Shown piece by piece: positions 26-21,732 of a DNA stretch of 64,000 nt (positions are counted from its first letter, which is position 1; every line of letters starts with the position of its first letter). The DNA comes from Edwardsiella hoshinae NBRC 105699 = ATCC 33379. Lineage in GTDB: Bacteria; Pseudomonadota; Gammaproteobacteria; Enterobacterales; Enterobacteriaceae. A program made the position numbers and the translations under genes. The stretch is from positions 1-64,000 of the forward strand of contig NZ_BAUC01000034.1 of the NCBI RefSeq assembly GCF_000474215.1, given 5' to 3'. The notes below the pieces were generated by a model. That model searched no databases. It saw nothing but the letters and a program-made list of their open reading frames with translations, and was not told the DNA's origin.

Positions 26-343
26 TCAGACGTTACTCAGCTTCAATCCCAACATGCCACAGACAATCAATCCCAGGCTCAGTAAGCGTAACAGGCTGGC
101 CGACTCCCCCAAGAGGATCATCCCCATCATCGCCGTACCGACGGCACCGATACCGATCCAAACGGCATACGCCGTACCGGCGGGTAAGGTTTTCATCGCA
201 TGCGCCAACAGCAGCACACTGGTCACCATCGCCACTACGGTGACGAGACTGGGCCACAAGCGGGTGAATCCATGTGAATACTTCAGGCTGAGCGCCCACA
301 CGACCTCTAATAGGCCGGCGAGCAACAACACTACCCAAGACAT
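26..343 (-). CDS. sugE: SugE/Gdx, SMR-family guanidinium exporter
   Basis: Small multidrug resistance family protein of 105 residues and four predicted membrane helices, acting as a dimer in the inner membrane to exchange guanidinium for protons. The Glu in GLLEVVW (helix 1, about residue 13) is the family's essential substrate and proton site. The sequence follows E. coli SugE along its whole length. An in-frame TTG lies four codons upstream, but the ATG at 343 matches the family N-terminus MSW and has a GGA about 9 bases ahead. A guanidine-II-like RNA motif lies immediately upstream, which supports the Gdx rather than the quaternary-ammonium label. Confidence 0.93.
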
Positions 344-361
344 GATAAGATCCAACGAATA

Positions 362-408
362 CCCGGGACGTCCCTGAGAGGCGTGGTCTGCACGGGACGT
401 CCCGTGAC
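362..408 (-). promoter_or_regulatory. Guanidine-II (mini-ykkC) riboswitch-like tandem hairpins
   Basis: On the minus strand two short hairpins precede sugE: CACGGG-ACGT-CCCGTG (391-406) and GGG-ACGT-CCC (365-374), separated by 16 bases. Two GC-rich stems with ACG-starting tetraloops in the leader of a guanidinium exporter is the architecture of the guanidine-II riboswitch, whose loops pair with each other when guanidinium binds. As I recall the published consensus, the loop is ACGR; both loops here read ACGU, so the assignment rests on architecture and gene context. The second hairpin ends about 20 bases before the sugE start, fitting translational control. Confidence 0.7.
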
Positions 409-483
409 AGAAGGAGCCGTAAATGGCTCAGCGAGCCTACCCCGCCCTTGAGATAAAACCAAGCCCCCGCAGGCCGGGGGCGA

Positions 484-511
484 AAAAAAACCGCGCCAGG
501 CGCGGTTTTTG
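484..511 (-). terminator. Bidirectional-looking terminator after efp
   Basis: CCGCGCC (491-497) pairs with GGCGCGG (499-505). The stem is flanked by an A8 tract on the left and a T5 tract on the right, so on the minus strand it ends with T residues just past the efp stop. A second GC hairpin lies at about 465-482. Confidence 0.75.
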
Positions 512-524
512 TCGTGACGCGAAG

Positions 525-1091
525 TTACTTCACGCGGGAAACATATTCGCCAGAGCGTGTATCCACCTTGATCACTTCCCCGATCTGAACAAACAACGGC
601 ACTTTAACCACCGCGCCGGTGCTCAGGGTCGCCGGCTTACCGCCAGTCCCCGCGGTATCGCCCTTCAGACCCGGATCGGTATCGACGATCTCCAGTTCGA
701 CGAAGTTCGGCGGAGTGACGGCGATCGGTTGGCCGTTCCACAGGGTAACCACGCACTCGGCCTGATCCAGCAGCCACTTGGCGTTATCGCCAACCGCTTT
801 GGCATCGGCAGCCAGCTGCTCAAAGGTATCGTTGTTCATGAAGTGCCAGAACTCACCGTCGTTGTACAGGTAAGTCAGGTTCACGTCCATGACGTCAGCC
901 CCCTCAGCACTATCGGTAGACTTGAAGGTCTTCTCGATCAGCTTGCCGGTCAGCAGGCGGCGCAGCTTAACGCGCGCAAAGGCCTGGCCTTTACCCGGTT
1001 TGACGAACTCGCTGGATTCGACGGCGTAAGGTTCGCCGTCCATCATGATTTTAAGACCGGAGCGGAAATCGTTGCTAGAATACGTTGCCAT
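525..1091 (-). CDS. efp: Elongation factor P
   Basis: Translation factor that binds between the ribosomal P and E sites and relieves stalling at consecutive prolines. At 188 residues it has the usual length and three beta-barrel domains. The loop PGKGQA carries Lys34, the residue that EpmA/EpmB beta-lysylate; the modification gene epmB lies divergently, starting about 40 bases from this start codon. The start ATG gives the canonical [10 protein letters not shown]-terminus. A terminator follows the stop codon. Confidence 0.98.
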
Positions 1092-1133
1092 AAAGGCCCT
1101 CTGAATAATTTACTTGGTAGCTTAGCCAAAAAA

Positions 1134-2162
1134 ATGGCACATATTGTAACCCAAAAAGGGCAGCCGAGAGAAGATTGGCTGCAACAACTTGCCGACGTTG
1201 TCACCGACCCCGCCGACTTACTGGCTCAACTGGGCCTCGCCGACCACCCAGAATGGCGCGCGGGCTGTGAGGCACGCCGTCTGTTTCCTTTGCGGGTACC
1301 ACGCGCCTTCATCCGCCGCATGCGTCATGGCGATCCCCGGGATCCCCTATTGCGCCAGGTGATGAGTGATGCCGCCGAGTTTATCGAAACCCCCGGTTTC
1401 TCGACCGATCCGCTGGAAGAGCAGCATAGCGTGGTGCCCGGCCTGTTGCATAAATACCACAACCGAGCCCTGTTGCTAGTTAAAGGAGGCTGCGCCGTTA
1501 ACTGCCGTTACTGCTTCCGTCGTCACTTCCCCTACCAGGAGAATCAAGGGACGCGCGCCAACTGGCAACGTGCGCTAGAGTACCTCCGCGAGCACCCGGA
1601 ATTGGATGAGATCATCTTTTCCGGCGGTGATCCGCTGATGGCCAAGGATCATGAACTCGACTGGTTGTTCACACAACTGGAGTCATTGCCGCACCTCAAG
1701 CGGTTACGCATTCACAGCCGCCTACCGGTAGTGATCCCGGCGCGTATCACCGAGGCACTGTGTCAGCGCATGGCCGATTCTCCGCTCCAGATGCTGCTGG
1801 TCACACATATCAACCACGCCAACGAGATCGATGATGAGTTACGCACCGCTATGGGGAGCCTGAAACAGGCGGGGGTGACGTTGTTAAACCAGAGCGTACT
1901 GTTGCGGGGTGTCAACGACCATGCCGAGACCTTGGCCGCGCTGAGCAATGCGCTGTTCGACGCCGGTATCCTGCCCTATTACCTGCATGTACTGGACCGG
2001 GTACAGGGAGGGGCTCACTTTATGGTTCCGGACGACGAAGCTCGCGTCCTGATGCGGGGATTACTGGCCCGGGTCTCGGGTTACCTGGTTCCGCGCCTAA
2101 CGCGCGAAATCGGTGGTGAACCGAGCAAAACCCAGCTTGATTTGCACCTGCGTCAACGCTAA
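1134..2162 (+). CDS. epmB: EF-P (R)-beta-lysylation 2,3-aminomutase EpmB
   Basis: Radical SAM, PLP-dependent aminomutase that converts (S)-alpha-lysine to (R)-beta-lysine for attachment to EF-P Lys34. The cluster motif CxxxCxxC is seen as C120, C124 and C127 (CAVNCRYC). The protein is 342 residues, the same length as E. coli EpmB. The open frame runs further upstream to 423, but that part is antisense to efp. The ATG at 1134 gives the family N-terminus MAHIVTQ, so it was chosen. It is divergent from efp and shares the intergenic region with it. Confidence 0.97.
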   Translation: MAHIVTQKGQPREDWLQQLADVVTDPADLLAQLGLADHPEWRAGCEARRLFPLRVPRAFIRRMRHGDPRDPLLRQVMSDAAEFIETPGFSTDPLEEQHSVVPGLLHKYHNRALLLVKGGCAVNCRYCFRRHFPYQENQGTRANWQRALEYLREHPELDEIIFSGGDPLMAKDHELDWLFTQLESLPHLKRLRIHSRLPVVIPARITEALCQRMADSPLQMLLVTHINHANEIDDELRTAMGSLKQAGVTLLNQSVLLRGVNDHAETLAALSNALFDAGILPYYLHVLDRVQGGAHFMVPDDEARVLMRGLLARVSGYLVPRLTREIGGEPSKTQLDLHLRQR

Positions 2163-2443
2163 TCCCCCCGCAATCGAGCCCGGCATTATGCGCCGACCGC
2201 TCACCTGCTGATCTAGCCCGCCGCGCTTGATGCGGGCTGCTGCGTCTTTTCTCTCGCCTTAATCCATCGAATAACAATAAACCCTAAACTCACCACATAA
2301 ATCTACCAATATCGCGATAACTTTTAACCTTTATTTAAATTGAAGCGATCCAGCTACGTGCATTAACCAGTTATTTACGTTATAAACACAGCGCAGTAAA
2401 TCATCATACCAATAATAGTAACCTGAGTTAGATAGGGAAATTT

Positions 2444-3997
2444 ATGCCTGCTTACCTACCATTCCTGTTGGGGATCTTACCTCTCGTCGTTATGATTATT
2501 CTGATCCTCAAAATCAAAACCCCCATTCACTACGCCGTGCTACTCACCCTGGCGCTGACGCTGCTGGTCACCGGGCTGTATTGGCATACACCGTTACAAA
2601 CACTCGGCTCGGCAGTACTCTATGGTGCCTTGAAGGGGTTGTGGCCGATCATCATCGTGATCCTCGGTGCCATCTACAGCTACAACCTGATGCTGAAGAC
2701 CGGTAGCATGGATGTCCTGCGTCATGTATTAGCCACAGTCAGCGACGATAAGCGTATCCAAGTGCTCCTGATAGCCTGGTGCTTCGGCGGTTTTCTCGAG
2801 GCCGCTGCGGGCTATGGCACCGCCGTCGCCATCCCCATCGGTATCCTGATCGCACTCGGCTTTAACCCGCTCAAGGCCGCCATCGCTTCCCTGGTCGCCA
2901 ACACGGTGCCCACCGCCTTCGGTGCCGTCGGCATCCCAGTATCGATCCTGGCCGAACAGGTCAATCTGCCCGTCACCGCCCTCAGCGCGACCATCATCGC
3001 TCAGTTAGCGTTGTTTAACATCCTGCTGCCCTTCGTCATCGTCGCCATCATCGGCGGCGGGATCCGCGCACTGCGTGGTATGGTTGGCCTAACGCTGGTG
3101 TGTGGCATCGCCACCTTAGTTCCTCAGTATATCGTGGCCATCAAGCTGGGTGCCGAGCTGCCCGCTTTCGCCGGCAGCCTGGTCAGCCTGATCGCCGTTA
3201 CCCTGATGGCCAAAGCCCGGCGTGCTGAGACTGCTGCCGAGTACCGCATCGATAGCACGCATCTGTCTGGGGAGTGCCATTACTCCACCGTGCAGCTGCT
3301 ACGCGCCTGTGCCATCTATATCCTGATCTTTATCTTCATTCTGCTCTGCTCACCACTGTTGCCAACCCTACGTGCGACGGTCGCCCAAGTCGCCAGCGTG
3401 ATCAGCTTCCCGTTAGCCGATGGCCAAGCATTGCGCCTAAAAATCGACTGGATCGCCACCCCGGGCGTGCTGATCATCATCGCCACCCTGCTCGGTGGCC
3501 TCATACAGAGGGCCACCATTGGCCAGATGTTGCATGTCTTCGTCGCCACCGTGAAGCAACTGAAGAATTCGATCATCGCCATCTGCGCCATCGTCGCCAT
3601 GGCGACGGTTATGGACGTCAGTGGCCTGATCGCCACCTTGGCACAGACCCTGGTTGACGTCACCGGCGGCGGCTACCTGTTCATCGCCCCGATCATCGGC
3701 GCTTTGGGCACCTTCGTCACCGGCAGCGACACCAACTCCAACGTACTGTTCGGCAAACTACAAACCATGGCGGCCGAGCGGCTACACGTCGATCCGTTAT
3801 GGCTGGCAGCGGCCAATACCTCCGGCGCAACCGGCGGCAAGATGATCTCGCCGCAAAGCATCGCCATCGCCGTTTCGGCCACCCGTATGGAGGGACAAGG
3901 CAGCGCCATCATGTCCGGTACCCTGAAGTATTGCTGCGCCTACATCGTGATCCTCGGGGTGAAGATCGGCTTGGTTTACTACTTTTTCATGGCTTAA
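2444..3997 (+). CDS. lldP: L-lactate permease LldP
   Basis: Inner-membrane lactate/glycolate:proton symporter of the LctP family, 517 residues, with about 12-14 hydrophobic helices throughout. The conserved stretch GGFLEAAAGYGTAVAIPIG (about residues 115-133) is a family hallmark. It is followed after 48 bases by the three LutABC-type genes, so uptake and oxidation of L-lactate are encoded together. The 281-base region before it is AT-rich and presumably holds the promoter. No lldR or lutR regulator is adjacent. Confidence 0.95.
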   Translation: MPAYLPFLLGILPLVVMIILILKIKTPIHYAVLLTLALTLLVTGLYWHTPLQTLGSAVLYGALKGLWPIIIVILGAIYSYNLMLKTGSMDVLRHVLATVSDDKRIQVLLIAWCFGGFLEAAAGYGTAVAIPIGILIALGFNPLKAAIASLVANTVPTAFGAVGIPVSILAEQVNLPVTALSATIIAQLALFNILLPFVIVAIIGGGIRALRGMVGLTLVCGIATLVPQYIVAIKLGAELPAFAGSLVSLIAVTLMAKARRAETAAEYRIDSTHLSGECHYSTVQLLRACAIYILIFIFILLCSPLLPTLRATVAQVASVISFPLADGQALRLKIDWIATPGVLIIIATLLGGLIQRATIGQMLHVFVATVKQLKNSIIAICAIVAMATVMDVSGLIATLAQTLVDVTGGGYLFIAPIIGALGTFVTGSDTNSNVLFGKLQTMAAERLHVDPLWLAAANTSGATGGKMISPQSIAIAVSATRMEGQGSAIMSGTLKYCCAYIVILGVKIGLVYYFFMA

Positions 3998-17553: not shown

Positions 17554-17629
17554 GCCCGGATAGCTCAGTCGGTAGAGCAGGGGATTGAAAATCCCCGTGT
17601 CCTTGGTTCGATTCCGAGTCCGGGCACCA
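17554..17629 (+). tRNA. pheU: tRNA-Phe (anticodon GAA)
   Basis: A 76-base cloverleaf including an encoded CCA end. Acceptor arms GCCCGGA/TCCGGGC pair fully, the D-stem is GCTC/GAGC, the anticodon stem is GGGGA/TCCCC around loop TTGAAAA (anticodon GAA), and the T-stem is CTTGG/CCGAG. By eye it is identical to E. coli tRNA-Phe. In E. coli pheU also lies near yjdC. Confidence 0.98.
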
Positions 17630-17638
17630 TTTATTCTG

Positions 17639-17672
17639 AAAACCCTGCCTGATGGCGGGGTTTTCGCTTTTC
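17639..17672 (+). terminator. tRNA-Phe terminator
   Basis: AACCCTGCC, loop TGAT, GGCGGGGTT, then TTCGCTTTT, 10 bases after the tRNA. Confidence 0.85.
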
Positions 17673-18115
17673 TGGTTACGGTAGATTTCTGCTTACGTTT
17701 CCGCCTCATCGGTCATGGCGCCGCATTTTCATGCGTTCTACGTCTGAGTCATCATTATCCTGCTCAATGATGACATCCACGAGCTCCTCAGTTTTGCTCC
17801 ACTTTCCTCGCTCCGCAAGTACGCGACCAACCAGACAAGGGCTCGCCAGGTCAACGCCCATTCGTTCTTGCTAAGTTAAAAGCTCGGTAGCAATCATATC
17901 CGCACTTTCTATTCTCACGCTATACAATCACTTCGTATCATTATCATCAATGATATGTCCTACCTCATCATTTTCAGAATACTTTGTGAACACACTCACG
18001 CTTTATCTCAGTGAATAATGCTTATTCGCTGGCACATTTCTTGCTTTTTTTATTCTGCGTAACCGATTGCGTGATTATTCAGATAAAAAACAAAACAGGT
18101 CAAAGAGATTACACT
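17673..18115. other. AT-rich gap after tRNA-Phe
   Basis: No gene seen. The composition becomes clearly more AT-rich than the flanking core genes from about 17880 onward and continues so into the NCS2 permease gene. I found no repeat of the tRNA 3' end here that would mark an integration site. Confidence 0.5.
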
Positions 18116-19453
18116 ATGAAAACAAATACAAAAAATGATGAAGTCAATGAAATGATGCCGATGCGAAAACTGTTCCCCTATGCGGTTCAGCACATTTTCG
18201 CCATGTTTACCGGTACCATTGCTGTACCAATAGTAATATCTCAAGTTTTAAAACTGTCGCAGGAAGACACCACTCTACTGATTGCCGCCGCAATATTTGT
18301 CTCCGGTGTCGGGACCCTGATACAATCACTTAGCATCACCAAATATGTCGGTGTCAGTCTCCCGCTAATCCTCGGCACCTCATTTGTGGCAATGCCCCCG
18401 GTTTTTATTATCGCTTCACAGTTTGGTGGCGGGATTGAATCGCTATCTTATGTTTTCGGCGGGACACTCGTCTCCGGGATACTCCTGTTTTTCCTCGCGC
18501 CACTATACGGAAAAATCGCGTTTTTATTCAAACCAATAGTCATCGGTTGCTATCTTATTATGCTCGGCGTTTCATTGCTGCCGGTCTCTTTTTCCGGCAT
18601 TGTCGGTTATCCTGGCGAAGCCTCCTACGGCGATCCGGCTGGTATTTTTCTCGGTGTACTCACCATTGCATTAATTGTGTTGTTGAATCGTTTTGGGAAA
18701 GGTGCTTTGCGGGAGATGTCGATTCTTATCGGCCTGATCGTAGCCACACTGGTTGCGGTAGGAATGGATATGGTCAATTTCGGCCCGCTGAGTAATGCCA
18801 GTTGGTTTTCGTTCGTCCGTCCTGCACATTACGGTATTCACTTTGACCTGACGGCCATTATTCTGATGTTCCTCGGTACTTTTATGGCAACATTGGATTC
18901 TGTCGGTACCTTCTCTACAGTCGGGCGCCTATGTAATCGCTCTATGGAAGGTAATGCACTGAACGCTCCCATGCGTGGCGAGGGGGTCGCAGTGACAGTT
19001 TCCGGACTATTTAACTGTACGCCGCTGACATCTTTTATTAACAACGCCGGAGTGATTATTATTTCTGGTGTGCGTAGCCGCTATGTAACTGCGTGCAGTG
19101 GCATTATTCTAATCATTCTCAGTATTATTCCAAAATTTTCTGCGATTGCCACGATGATCCCTGCATCCGTTTTCGGCGGGGCGACACTGGTTATTTTTGC
19201 TTTTATTACGGTGGCGGGGATAGACACACTCGCAAAATCTGTCGATATGAGCAAAATGGGCAATATGATGGTAGTGGGAATTTCCGTCAGTGTTGGACTG
19301 ATGTTTAATGGGCAAGGTGAAGCTCTGGCTCAGTTACCGAAAACATTACAGATTATTCTTTCCCAAGGGGTGATAGTAACCTTTGTCCTGGCTATCGTTC
19401 TAAATCTTTTATTTAATTTTAATAGTGTCGTTAGTAAAAAAGAAAACCTGTGA
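18116..19453 (+). CDS. NCS2/NAT-family nucleobase permease, atypical
   Basis: Membrane transporter of 445 residues, about 12-14 helices, of the nucleobase-ascorbate (NCS2) family that takes up xanthine, urate or uracil with protons. The frame is open from 18011, but MKTNTK at 18116 is the natural start. Residues that normally form the substrate site are altered: the TM8 E-S-V-G-D pattern reads D-S-V-G-T (D261, T265), the TM9 Asp appears as E289, and the TM10 Q-N-N-G signature reads N-N-A-G (309-312). The TM1 QH pair is kept (Q25-H26). Substrate cannot be predicted. The gene is more AT-rich than its neighbours and stands alone next to tRNA-Phe, which fits acquisition by transfer. Confidence 0.85.
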   Translation: MKTNTKNDEVNEMMPMRKLFPYAVQHIFAMFTGTIAVPIVISQVLKLSQEDTTLLIAAAIFVSGVGTLIQSLSITKYVGVSLPLILGTSFVAMPPVFIIASQFGGGIESLSYVFGGTLVSGILLFFLAPLYGKIAFLFKPIVIGCYLIMLGVSLLPVSFSGIVGYPGEASYGDPAGIFLGVLTIALIVLLNRFGKGALREMSILIGLIVATLVAVGMDMVNFGPLSNASWFSFVRPAHYGIHFDLTAIILMFLGTFMATLDSVGTFSTVGRLCNRSMEGNALNAPMRGEGVAVTVSGLFNCTPLTSFINNAGVIIISGVRSRYVTACSGIILIILSIIPKFSAIATMIPASVFGGATLVIFAFITVAGIDTLAKSVDMSKMGNMMVVGISVSVGLMFNGQGEALAQLPKTLQIILSQGVIVTFVLAIVLNLLFNFNSVVSKKENL

Positions 19454-20079
19454 TGCGGCGACCTGCTGGTCAGCGGAATCCTCCGTTACCAGCAGGAAAT
19501 ATCTACCATTGGTAAAATAACAACATAGAATGCTAACCAGATGGCTAGAATCAGCGATATCAGTGCACGCCAGCAAGAGATGCGCTAACCAGTAAAATTC
19601 TACTTAACGCATTGAGCGCGACAGTCTGGAGAAGTCCCGTCAACAACAGCTACGCGCATCAATGGCGAAAGATGGCACATTGACATGCTATCAATTACTT
19701 CCGACGTCAGCCATCAGTTAAAGCGATGATCAACCATTTGCCATGGATCATATCGCGCAGATAAGCCGCGTCATAATGTGCCATGAATACCCCATCCAGG
19801 ATATGATCTTGATGATTTTATATAATATTCATTCCATATCCGTCTGGTCTGTAATGTCACGAGTTCAGTAGGCGAAGGCCTATCACGCGCTCTGCCGCCG
19901 ATCATATCCTGACAAAAATAGTCTGAGTTTATTTATGGATTATTTTTCCGTTGTAAACCCTGCGCCGAATAACGTAACAGAACGCGTCCATAGGCGATAT
20001 GCCGTTTGCCATTAACCCGCCGTTCGCCAAATACTGTGACTACACTCACTATAGGGCTTCTCCGTTATAGGACAGGATC
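19454..20079. other. Gene-free stretch between permease and decarboxylase
   Basis: 626 bases without a convincing gene. Only short open frames are present, for example 25 codons on the minus strand at 19707-19784 with no clear ribosome site. It could be decayed sequence. The right end must carry the promoter of the decarboxylase gene; a single TGTAAA at 19952 is only half of a TyrR-type box. Confidence 0.45.
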
Positions 20080-21732
20080 ATGACAAGTGTGGTTGAGTAT
20101 GTGCTCTCACGGTTATACGACTTAGGTATTCGAGATATTTTCGGCGTTCCCGGCGACTATGCCTTTCCGATTGAGGATGCCGTCTGTGCCGATCCCCGCC
20201 TGCGCTGGGTCGGAAACTGCAACGAATTGAATGCCGCCTATGCGGCGGATGGTTATGCGCGGATCCAGGGTATGGCGGCCCTAAGCACCACCTTCGGGGT
20301 AGGAGAGCTCAGCGCCCTTAATGGCATTGCCGGTGCCTACGCCGAATCACTCCCTCTATTTCATCTGGTCGGTATGCCAGCGAGCGCAGTACAAGCGGCG
20401 GGAAAATTAGTGCACCACACGCTCGGCGACGGAGACTTTAGCCATTTCGCGCACGCCAGTGCGGCCTTCGTCTGCGCCAGCGCCATTCTGACGCCGGAAA
20501 ACTGCGTCGTGGAGCTCGCTCGCCTAATCGACGCCGCGCTCCGCTACCGTAAACCGGTTTATATCGGCATTCCCTGCGACTATGCCGTCATGCCGATTAA
20601 CACCAGCACCGTTCCTCTCAGCACGCCGCTGCATAGCGATCCTCAGGTACTGGCCGAGGTGAGTGCACGGATCGTCGAGCGGCTCAAGCAGAGCCAGCAG
20701 GCCTGCGCATTACCCGGGATCTACCTTACCCGTCATCAGGTACGCCAAGCGGCGCAAAACCTGATTGAGGCAGCAAATCTCTGCTTCGCGACCATGATTA
20801 TGGACAAAGGCGTGCTGGATGAATCACACCCAAACTACATTGGCATGTATAACGGCCAGCTACTCAACCCAGAGGTACGCGATTTCGTAGAAAGTTGCGA
20901 CTGCGTGTTGCTGATGGGTACCTTGCTATCCGACTTCAACAGCGGGGGCTTTACCGCTCGCCTCGATCCTACGCGCTGCATCACACTCATGCCAGAGTCG
21001 GTGCGCATCGGCGCCACCGAATACCTCCAGGTTCGAATGGAGGATGTTCTGAATGCCGTCGTCCAGCAGGTCAGCCCGTTGCCTCGCCCAACGGAAGCAC
21101 CGCAGCCACAGCCTCTGGCAGCAGTCAACGCCAGCGGCGCCATCAATGCGTCCTACCTCTATGCCCGCTGGCAACAGATGCTGCGTCCCCATGACATCGT
21201 GGTAGCGGAAACCGGGACGGTCTCTATGGGGCTCAGCTTTGCGCTGCTGCCGCCTGGAGCGAGCTTCCATAATCAGACACTCTGGGGTGCCATCGGTTGG
21301 GCGACACCGGCGGCCCTTGGTTGCGCCCTCGCCTCGCCGACGCAACGCACTCTCCTGCTCAGCGGTGAAGGCGCGCATCAGTTAACGGTACAAGAGATCA
21401 GCCAATTCGCCCGCCACGGGGTAAAACCGATCATCTTCATCTTGAACAACGATGGCTATCTGATCGAACGCCTGCTATGTCAAGATGGGGAGGCTGGCTA
21501 TAACAATCTGGTACCCTGGCAGTACGCGCAACTTCCCCAAGCGTTGGGGTGTCAAGGATGGTTCTGCGCGCGGGTCACTACCTGTGAAGCGTTGGATGAG
21601 GCAATTCGCCACGCCGAACAATGTGACCGGGGGGCTTATATCGAGGTGATCACCGGCGAGTATGTTGCCCCTCCACTAGCCGAGAAGATGCATCACGCCA
21701 TGGCGTCGCTATACCACGACCACGCCGGCTAA
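20080..21732 (+). CDS. ipdC: ThDP-dependent 2-oxo-acid (indolepyruvate-type) decarboxylase
   Basis: Cytosolic decarboxylase of 550 residues in the pyruvate/indolepyruvate decarboxylase family. Indole-3-pyruvate to indole-3-acetaldehyde is the likeliest reaction in an enterobacterium, but phenylpyruvate or branched-chain oxo acids are possible. It has the catalytic Glu49 (NCNELNAAYAADGYAR), the His pair H112-H113 before TLGDGDF, and the ThDP/Mg motif from residue 429 to NNDGY (456-460). The motif's usual GDG reads GEG (E430), a conservative change at a metal ligand. AGGACAGG precedes the ATG. It stands alone. Confidence 0.85.
   Translation: MTSVVEYVLSRLYDLGIRDIFGVPGDYAFPIEDAVCADPRLRWVGNCNELNAAYAADGYARIQGMAALSTTFGVGELSALNGIAGAYAESLPLFHLVGMPASAVQAAGKLVHHTLGDGDFSHFAHASAAFVCASAILTPENCVVELARLIDAALRYRKPVYIGIPCDYAVMPINTSTVPLSTPLHSDPQVLAEVSARIVERLKQSQQACALPGIYLTRHQVRQAAQNLIEAANLCFATMIMDKGVLDESHPNYIGMYNGQLLNPEVRDFVESCDCVLLMGTLLSDFNSGGFTARLDPTRCITLMPESVRIGATEYLQVRMEDVLNAVVQQVSPLPRPTEAPQPQPLAAVNASGAINASYLYARWQQMLRPHDIVVAETGTVSMGLSFALLPPGASFHNQTLWGAIGWATPAALGCALASPTQRTLLLSGEGAHQLTVQEISQFARHGVKPIIFILNNDGYLIERLLCQDGEAGYNNLVPWQYAQLPQALGCQGWFCARVTTCEALDEAIRHAEQCDRGAYIEVITGEYVAPPLAEKMHHAMASLYHDHAG

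Follow-up and report, generated by a model that had tools for sequence, protein, structure and literature searches.

A predicted NCS2 permease lineage with shortened purine-contact side chains and a candidate link to anaerobic urate breakdown

The permease locus

The window, by which we mean the whole 64,000-nucleotide stretch of DNA that was analyzed, encodes a permease of the NCS2 family on an insert of low GC content that lies next to a tRNA gene:

17554..17629, + strand: tRNA-Phe, just before the insert
17672..19887, no strand assigned: low-GC insert, 2,216 bp, 45% GC, absent from the same-genus genome G001
18116..19453, + strand: NCS2 permease gene, 445 aa, identified by its open reading frame, by profiles and by orthologues that are 93–95% identical in four Morganella genomes

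The reading frame is intact over 445 residues from the ATG at 18116. An alternative GTG start at 18011 gives a longer frame but lies upstream of the promoter at 18030–18045 described below. The product passes the gathering cut-off of Pfam PF00860 (Xan_ur_permease; 253.6 bits against 27, residues 18–396), the Pfam search found no domain beyond the permease domain, and a sequence alignment with UraA spans residues 10–426. The Gln-His pair of TMS1 that PMC5972032 gives as a canonical NAT criterion is present as Q25-H26. A predicted structure computed from a six-row alignment had a mean pLDDT of 44.7, too poor for use.

Narrower profiles place the protein at the edge of the recognized groups. The nearest is that of pbuX (TIGR03173), on which the window permease scores 372.1 bits against a cut-off of 414.15; UacT (509.8) and an Enterococcus PbuX (529.8) pass, XanQ (413.7) falls 0.5 bit short, and a protein from Niallia (370.3) also misses. 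The cut-off of NCBIfam TIGR00801 (ncs2), 291.8 bits, is narrowly missed by the window permease (289.1 bits, 2.7 short) and cleared by the Morganella copy in locus L017 (293.4 bits). Both cut-offs are cleared by UacT, the Enterococcus PbuX, a Rhodococcus protein and a Klebsiella plasmid protein, and the Niallia protein lies below both. The protein also clears the cut-off of a further profile, NF037981 (102 against 40), which does not discriminate, as UacT and PbuX clear it too.

Shorter side chains at both purine contacts

We aligned the window permease using MAFFT with XanQ, UacT, XanP, UraA, RutG and YbbY of E. coli K-12 and with one Enterococcus PbuX. The positions that differ from the studied members are encoded as follows, each assigned by alignment:

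18896..18898, + strand: codon of D261 (XanQ E272, the TM8 Glu)
18908..18910, + strand: codon of T265 (XanQ D276), a variable column
18980..18982, + strand: codon of E289 (XanQ D304)
19040..19051, + strand: codons of N309-N310-A311-G312, of which N309 is the unusual one

Ungapped within the motifs, D261 falls on XanQ E272, T265 on D276, E289 on D304 and N309-N310-A311-G312 on Q324-N325-N326-G327, and a larger alignment of 97 rows reproduces these matches. The TM8 stretch reads D261-S-V-G-T265, and the TM10 signature reads N309-N-A-G-V-I-I-I-S317-G, with Asn at position 4 and Ser where Thr is usual. An earlier note, made from the window sequence, had named D261, T265, E289 and N-N-A-G as changed, and both alignments bear out the residues and their numbering. 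Because the motifs are ungapped and columns 261 and 309 are those of UraA E241 and E290, the usual residues cannot be recovered by shifting either alignment. PMC3405029 treats UraA E241 and E290 as the substrate-contact pair and equates them with UapA E356 and Q408. The two main purine contacts are described as the Glu of TMS8 and the Gln or Glu of TMS10 (PMC5972032, PMC3405029), the former as absolutely conserved in the NCS2 family (PMC5972032).

The 97-row alignment comes from a scan of 110 loci, which yielded 95 proteins once contained repeats and fragments shorter than 300 aa had been removed; with nine references it comprises five rows of the permease clade (the window copy and four from Morganella) and 92 others, two of them repeat copies (E. 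coli UacT and UraA). Its rows derive from Pseudomonadota genomes and from plasmid-borne proteins of several phyla, not from the chromosomes of other phyla, and the absence of a residue refers to this set. D261 and N309 are common to all five clade members. Among the 92 other rows, column 261 holds Glu in 90 and Asn in two (YbbY and a relative) and never Asp, and column 309 holds Gln in 77, Glu in 11, Ser in three and Gly in one and never Asn; thinning to 53 rows gives 51 Glu and two Asn at column 261, and 41 Gln, eight Glu, three Ser and one Gly at column 309. Column 265 is highly variable (M 39, D 23, N 12, H 5, S 4, L 3, Q 2, and one each of A, V, G and T). Glu at column 289 occurs in three of the 92 (PbuX, L106 and L108) and Ala at column 311 in two.

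Only D261 and N309 are thus absent from all 92 other rows; T265, E289 and A311 are uncommon but found elsewhere. The suggestion that several substrate-site residues had changed therefore holds in full for the two direct purine contacts, and three of its five positions carry residues seen in 1, 3 and 2 of the 92 rows. The TM9 change from Asp to Glu in particular was correctly read but is less telling than had been proposed: the E289 column is that of UacT D298, at which the working purine transporter PlUacP has Glu (PMC6070649), as does PbuX. By alignment, both purine contacts keep their chemistry and are each one carbon shorter, Glu becoming Asp and Gln becoming Asn. In UapA, the engineered E356D variant gained 18-fold in xanthine affinity, lost transport and yielded a more stable purified protein (PMC3405029). 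The remainder of the core is largely intact: 61 columns have the same residue in 80% or more of the 53 thinned other rows, and the clade retains 48 of these (among them Q25-H26, N310, G312 and R322), departs from 12 (D261 included) and is itself variable at one.

One of the aligned proteins, an NCS2 permease of Niallia taxi (L106:189-1523), has the motifs E-T-T-G-T, G-E-G and S-S-N-A-G, with Ser at the position of the purine-contact Gln.

A deep-branching clade on the urate/xanthine side of NCS2

To place the permease in the NCS2 family we used two trees built on thinned rows. In the 46-row tree, from which YbbY and two long-branch rows were left out, the window permease and its Morganella orthologues form their own clade (three rows, 100/100 support), whose stem measures 2.59 changes per site. 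The clade lies outside the XanQ/XanP, UacT and RutG/UraA groups, in the half that contains UacT and PbuX (89/91 support), and its branching relative to PbuX, represented by a single row, is unsettled. A quick 49-row tree puts it in the same UacT/PbuX half with support of 86.

On these trees the permease represents a deeply branching lineage, as yet without a name, among the urate/xanthine transporters of NCS2. The earlier note had offered a different substrate or an unrecognized subfamily as the explanation for the changed residues. The second part is upheld by the fully supported, long-stemmed clade outside the characterized groups and by scores below the pbuX and, narrowly, the ncs2 cut-offs; a different substrate is only possible. 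A urate/xanthine cluster 1 has been described in PMC6308229, which counts the Morganella morganii proteome, with 11, among the richest in these transporters. No paper on this permease surfaced in the literature searched, which was thin in subscription journals and so gives weak evidence of absence.

Elsewhere in the set, a conjugative plasmid of Klebsiella carries an NCS2 permease gene (L110:207-1511) downstream of a gene for a ring-opening amidohydrolase; as a guess, this permease may carry rings of the barbiturate or cyanurate type.

Patchy distribution and apparent transfer between genera

Close orthologues (93–95% identical) were found only in Morganella. The permease is present in five of 392 genomes drawn from the larger family, namely the window genome and four Morganella, and in four of the six Morganella genomes. 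Four further genomes from the same genus as the window lack an orthologue and have only a 34% paralogue. Samples of the larger order and class returned the window itself as the sole carrier (1 of 295 and 1 of 274). Three Morganella records matched when genome_contigs, a collection described as covering 84,980 species, was scanned with six exact 8-residue patterns, which would miss relatives of 50–60% identity.

Across the two genera the permease is 94.8% identical at the amino acid level, compared with 74–81% for five pairings of other NCS2 proteins from the same two genomes. Its GC content is 45.5% against 57.6% for the window, and genome G001 has about 310 bp in place of the 2,216-bp insert. 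The permease was apparently transferred horizontally between the two genera, to judge from these comparisons, and vertical inheritance is disfavored by the patchy distribution together with the cross-genus identity. The permease gene comes after a tRNA gene both in the window (tRNA-Phe) and in two of the three Morganella loci (tRNA-Asp). A search for att-type repeats of the tRNA ends gave a longest common word of 9 bases in the window and none of at least 9 in Morganella L017. We also considered mobile carriers. Single-protein patterns found no relative in IMG/VR, and a profile-based scan of IMG/VR gave only two relatives, so a phage or virus origin was set aside, as was a plasmid origin, for which 509 PLSDB records match, all at less than 60% identity.

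Because synonymous divergence between the window copy and the Morganella copies is 0.8–1.0 and dN/dS against three of them is 0.026–0.040, the two genera's copies must have parted some time ago and the protein must be in use. We consider it very unlikely that the protein serves as a non-transporting purine receptor or transceptor that binds its ligand tightly without moving it. UapA E356D provides a precedent for such a state in its higher xanthine affinity, lost transport and greater stability (PMC3405029), but here the conserved transport core is mostly kept under strong selection, a pattern hard to square with loss of transport; the second change, Gln to Asn, may compensate, and the protein has no domain besides the permease.

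Two neighboring regions deserve mention. In Morganella L018, the permease is immediately preceded by a gene that looks integrase-like and by a gene group with one PAAR-like product (L018:6346-7557, − strand, and 149-3937, + strand). They occupy the place that tRNA-Asp has in two other Morganella loci, which would fit the insertion of an island. Beyond the insert in the window, the gene at 20080–21732, presumably for a decarboxylase-like thiamine-diphosphate enzyme, is 87% identical in one same-genus genome and 65–66% identical in three others.

A sigma54 promoter and a dyad upstream of the permease

The region upstream of the gene contains four sites of regulatory interest:

17942..17955, + strand: dyad TATCA-N4-TGATA, candidate activator site, its spacing one over the N3 consensus; sole match in the window
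17966..17978, + strand: position, by alignment, of the perfect TATCA-N3-TGATA of Morganella, degenerate in the window (3 mismatches)
17985..18000, + strand: CRP-like site TGTGA-N6-TCACG, 1 mismatch; 10 of 500 shuffles equal
18030..18045, + strand: sigma54 −24/−12 promoter TGGCACATTTCTTGCT, about 70 bp upstream of the ATG, exact consensus match

The sigma54 site TGGCACATTTCTTGCT is the sole exact match in the 64 kb (0.07 expected) and is conserved in all four Morganella permease copies; the pattern occurs in 15 of the 114 loci searched, all of them copies of this permease gene except L065 and L069. About 50 bp above the sigma54 site, each of the four Morganella promoters has a perfect TTATCA-N3-TGATAA, six bases a side, which none of 500 shuffles equaled in any of the four. 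The best N3 dyad in the 250 bp upstream of the window permease has 2 mismatches, matched by 126 of 500 shuffles. For the N4 dyad, 0.05 matches are expected in the window and none of 500 shuffles was as good, or three of 500 if spacings of 2–5 are allowed, the N4 spacing having been picked after the dyad was noticed. The window copy is thus the weak point of the case for shared regulation: its N3 dyad is degenerate and it has the N4 variant only. The CRP-like site occurs in both genera; the window copy and three Morganella copies have 1 mismatch each, and the fourth Morganella copy has 2.

Neither a loose NtrC pattern (GCAC-N5-7-GTGC) nor an IHF pattern matched upstream of the permease. A riboswitch search of the same region picked up nothing except the tRNA and, overlapping it, a weak rnk_pseudo hit that stays below threshold; this match to the Pseudomonas rnk leader (17555–17673; 33 bits, gathering 55, E 0.0044), which covers tRNA-Phe and the hairpin that follows, is probably due to chance.

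The N3 dyad recurs at anaerobic urate genes

Both the window genome and Morganella carry xdhD, ygfM, ssnA, ygfK, ygeWXY, hyuA and yqeA together with ygeV, which encodes a sigma54 activator, and both also have guaD, xanQ and uacT, with UacT and XanQ orthologues that are 68–82% identical to those of E. coli. The corresponding E. coli cluster is described as the anaerobic reductive urate pathway (PMC12507026). The permease gene is distant from the urate cluster in both genomes.

We counted all 5-base dyads at spacings of 0–10 with at most one mismatch in 12 intergenic purine/urate regions from three genera. TATCA-N3-TGATA came out on top de novo, in 10 of the 12 (0.27 regions expected; in 60 shuffled sets no dyad reached more than 6), having first been noticed near E. 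coli ygfK, which is one of the 12, and the Morganella permease. The other two regions, those of Morganella xdhA and ygfT, have no close dyad, nor do the 164 bp upstream of E. coli xanQ, which lie outside the 12 and would make the count 10 of 13. A held-out region, upstream of Morganella ygfK, has a perfect dyad (one of 300 shuffles as good) and a sigma54-like site with 3 mismatches 87 bp before the start; sigma54-like sites at urate-cluster genes have 2 mismatches each. Genome-wide, the perfect 15-mer occurs four to six times in each of four Morganella genomes, where the backward control gives 0; the 15-mer and control counts are 1 and 1 in both the window genome and G001 and 1 and 0 in G004. 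All controls for the dyad were dinucleotide shuffles and genome-wide counts, as distinct from upstream regions of other genes.

Individual dyads lie at L115:18790-18804 in E. coli K-12 (183 bp before the ygfK sigma54-like site), at L138:15014-15028 in Morganella, upstream of ygfK in L161 and in intergenic regions of L137 and L141. The sole perfect TTATCA-N3-TGATAA of the window genome (G000:C89:134783-134797; about 2784 in L137) is at the end of yqeC, before yqeB, and each of two same-genus genomes searched has this same single site.

From its recurrence, TATCA-N3-TGATA is a candidate operator of these anaerobic urate genes, probably bound by YgeV, which we predict as the binder because it is the sigma54 activator encoded within the urate cluster. 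It is unlikely that the permease works outside purine breakdown under another sigma54 activator, for example NtrC at nitrogen limitation. These genomes encode several proteins with a sigma54-activator domain, no purine gene was recognized among the neighbors of the permease, either in the window or in Morganella L017, and the window dyad is spaced N4 rather than N3, all of which would fit such control; against it, the perfect N3 dyad of the four Morganella promoters is the urate-gene dyad, and the loose NtrC-like pattern is missing upstream. The promoter sequence points to the purine/urate pathway over an unrelated ring compound.

A proposed role in oxopurine import

We give about even odds (roughly 0.5) to the reading that the permease is an oxopurine symporter of the sigma54/urate regulon, with a re-tuned purine site, that was acquired by horizontal transfer. 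By homology it would be an NCS2 secondary transporter, presumably a proton symporter with the elevator mechanism of UraA and UapA; horizontal transfer would have carried its lineage into Morganella as well as into the window genome. Transcription from the sigma54 promoter would depend on the activator of the urate genes, most likely YgeV, perhaps with CRP. Given control by that activator, the permease is predicted to import an oxopurine (urate, xanthine or, for example, 2,8-dioxopurine) during purine breakdown. The shorter Asp and Asn side chains should shift the position of the ligand or the size preference relative to UacT and XanQ and, because the same genomes have orthologues of both, the permease may prefer another oxopurine. 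Several observations count against this reading: the loss of transport in engineered UapA E356D (PMC3405029), the degenerate N3 dyad of the window copy, the 15-mer counts that do not exceed the control in the window genome and G001, the distance of the gene from the urate cluster, the purine/urate regions that lack a close dyad, and the 2 mismatches in each of the cluster's sigma54-like sites.

The protein could instead be an ordinary xanthine/urate permease, in which Asp and Asn are a compensated neutral variant, the substrate is that of UacT or XanQ and the extra copy adds capacity. We regard this as possible but doubtful. The pbuX profile is the nearest, the tree position is in the PbuX/UacT half and the regulation looks urate-type, as it would for such a permease; yet across the rest of our sample the two contacts vary little or not at all, both genomes already have the UacT and XanQ orthologues, and UapA E356D does not transport (PMC3405029). 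A more specialized version of oxopurine import seems to us rather unlikely, namely that the permease is a dedicated carrier for an unusual oxopurine such as 2,8-dioxopurine, held by a re-spaced Asp/Asn clamp that occurs in no other aligned NCS2 protein. This compound (yanthine) is reported as an intermediate of the reductive urate pathway that is released by E. coli and present in human serum (PMC12507026).

A lineage with natural Asp at one contact and Asn at the other, kept under strong selection, amounts to a natural experiment on the purine clamp and the choice of substrate, set against a family whose TMS8 Glu is called absolutely conserved (PMC5972032) and in which even Asp kills transport by UapA (PMC3405029). 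The promoter evidence suggests a testable substrate class, the oxopurines of anaerobic urate breakdown, which is topical for purine balance in the gut, and the dyad is a site through which the urate cluster of E. coli may be controlled, as a candidate operator.

Comparison with characterized NCS2 transporters

The xanthine permease PbuX (TIGR03173) and the urate:H+ symporter UacT of E. coli belong to the same family and the nearest half of the tree, at 31–34% identity, and the acidic residue of TM9 is Glu in PbuX too. The window permease differs from both in having Asp for their TM8 Glu and Asn for their TM10 Gln, and in forming a separate, long-stemmed clade. The xanthine:H+ symporter XanQ of E. 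coli is alignable over its full length and shares the His of TM1 as well as the residues aligned with N310 and G312, but it is only 24% identical, and its E272, D276, D304, Q324 and N326 are all changed in the window permease. The Niallia taxi protein (L106) shares the Gly-Thr after the TM8 acid, the G-E-G of TM9 and the N-A-G of TM10; it differs in keeping the TM8 Glu and in having Ser at signature position 4, at 26% identity. UapA of Aspergillus nidulans is a relative of solved structure whose E356 and Q408 occupy the columns of D261 and N309 (PMC3405029). There the Asp was engineered and abolished transport (PMC3405029), whereas in the window permease it is natural and paired with Asn.
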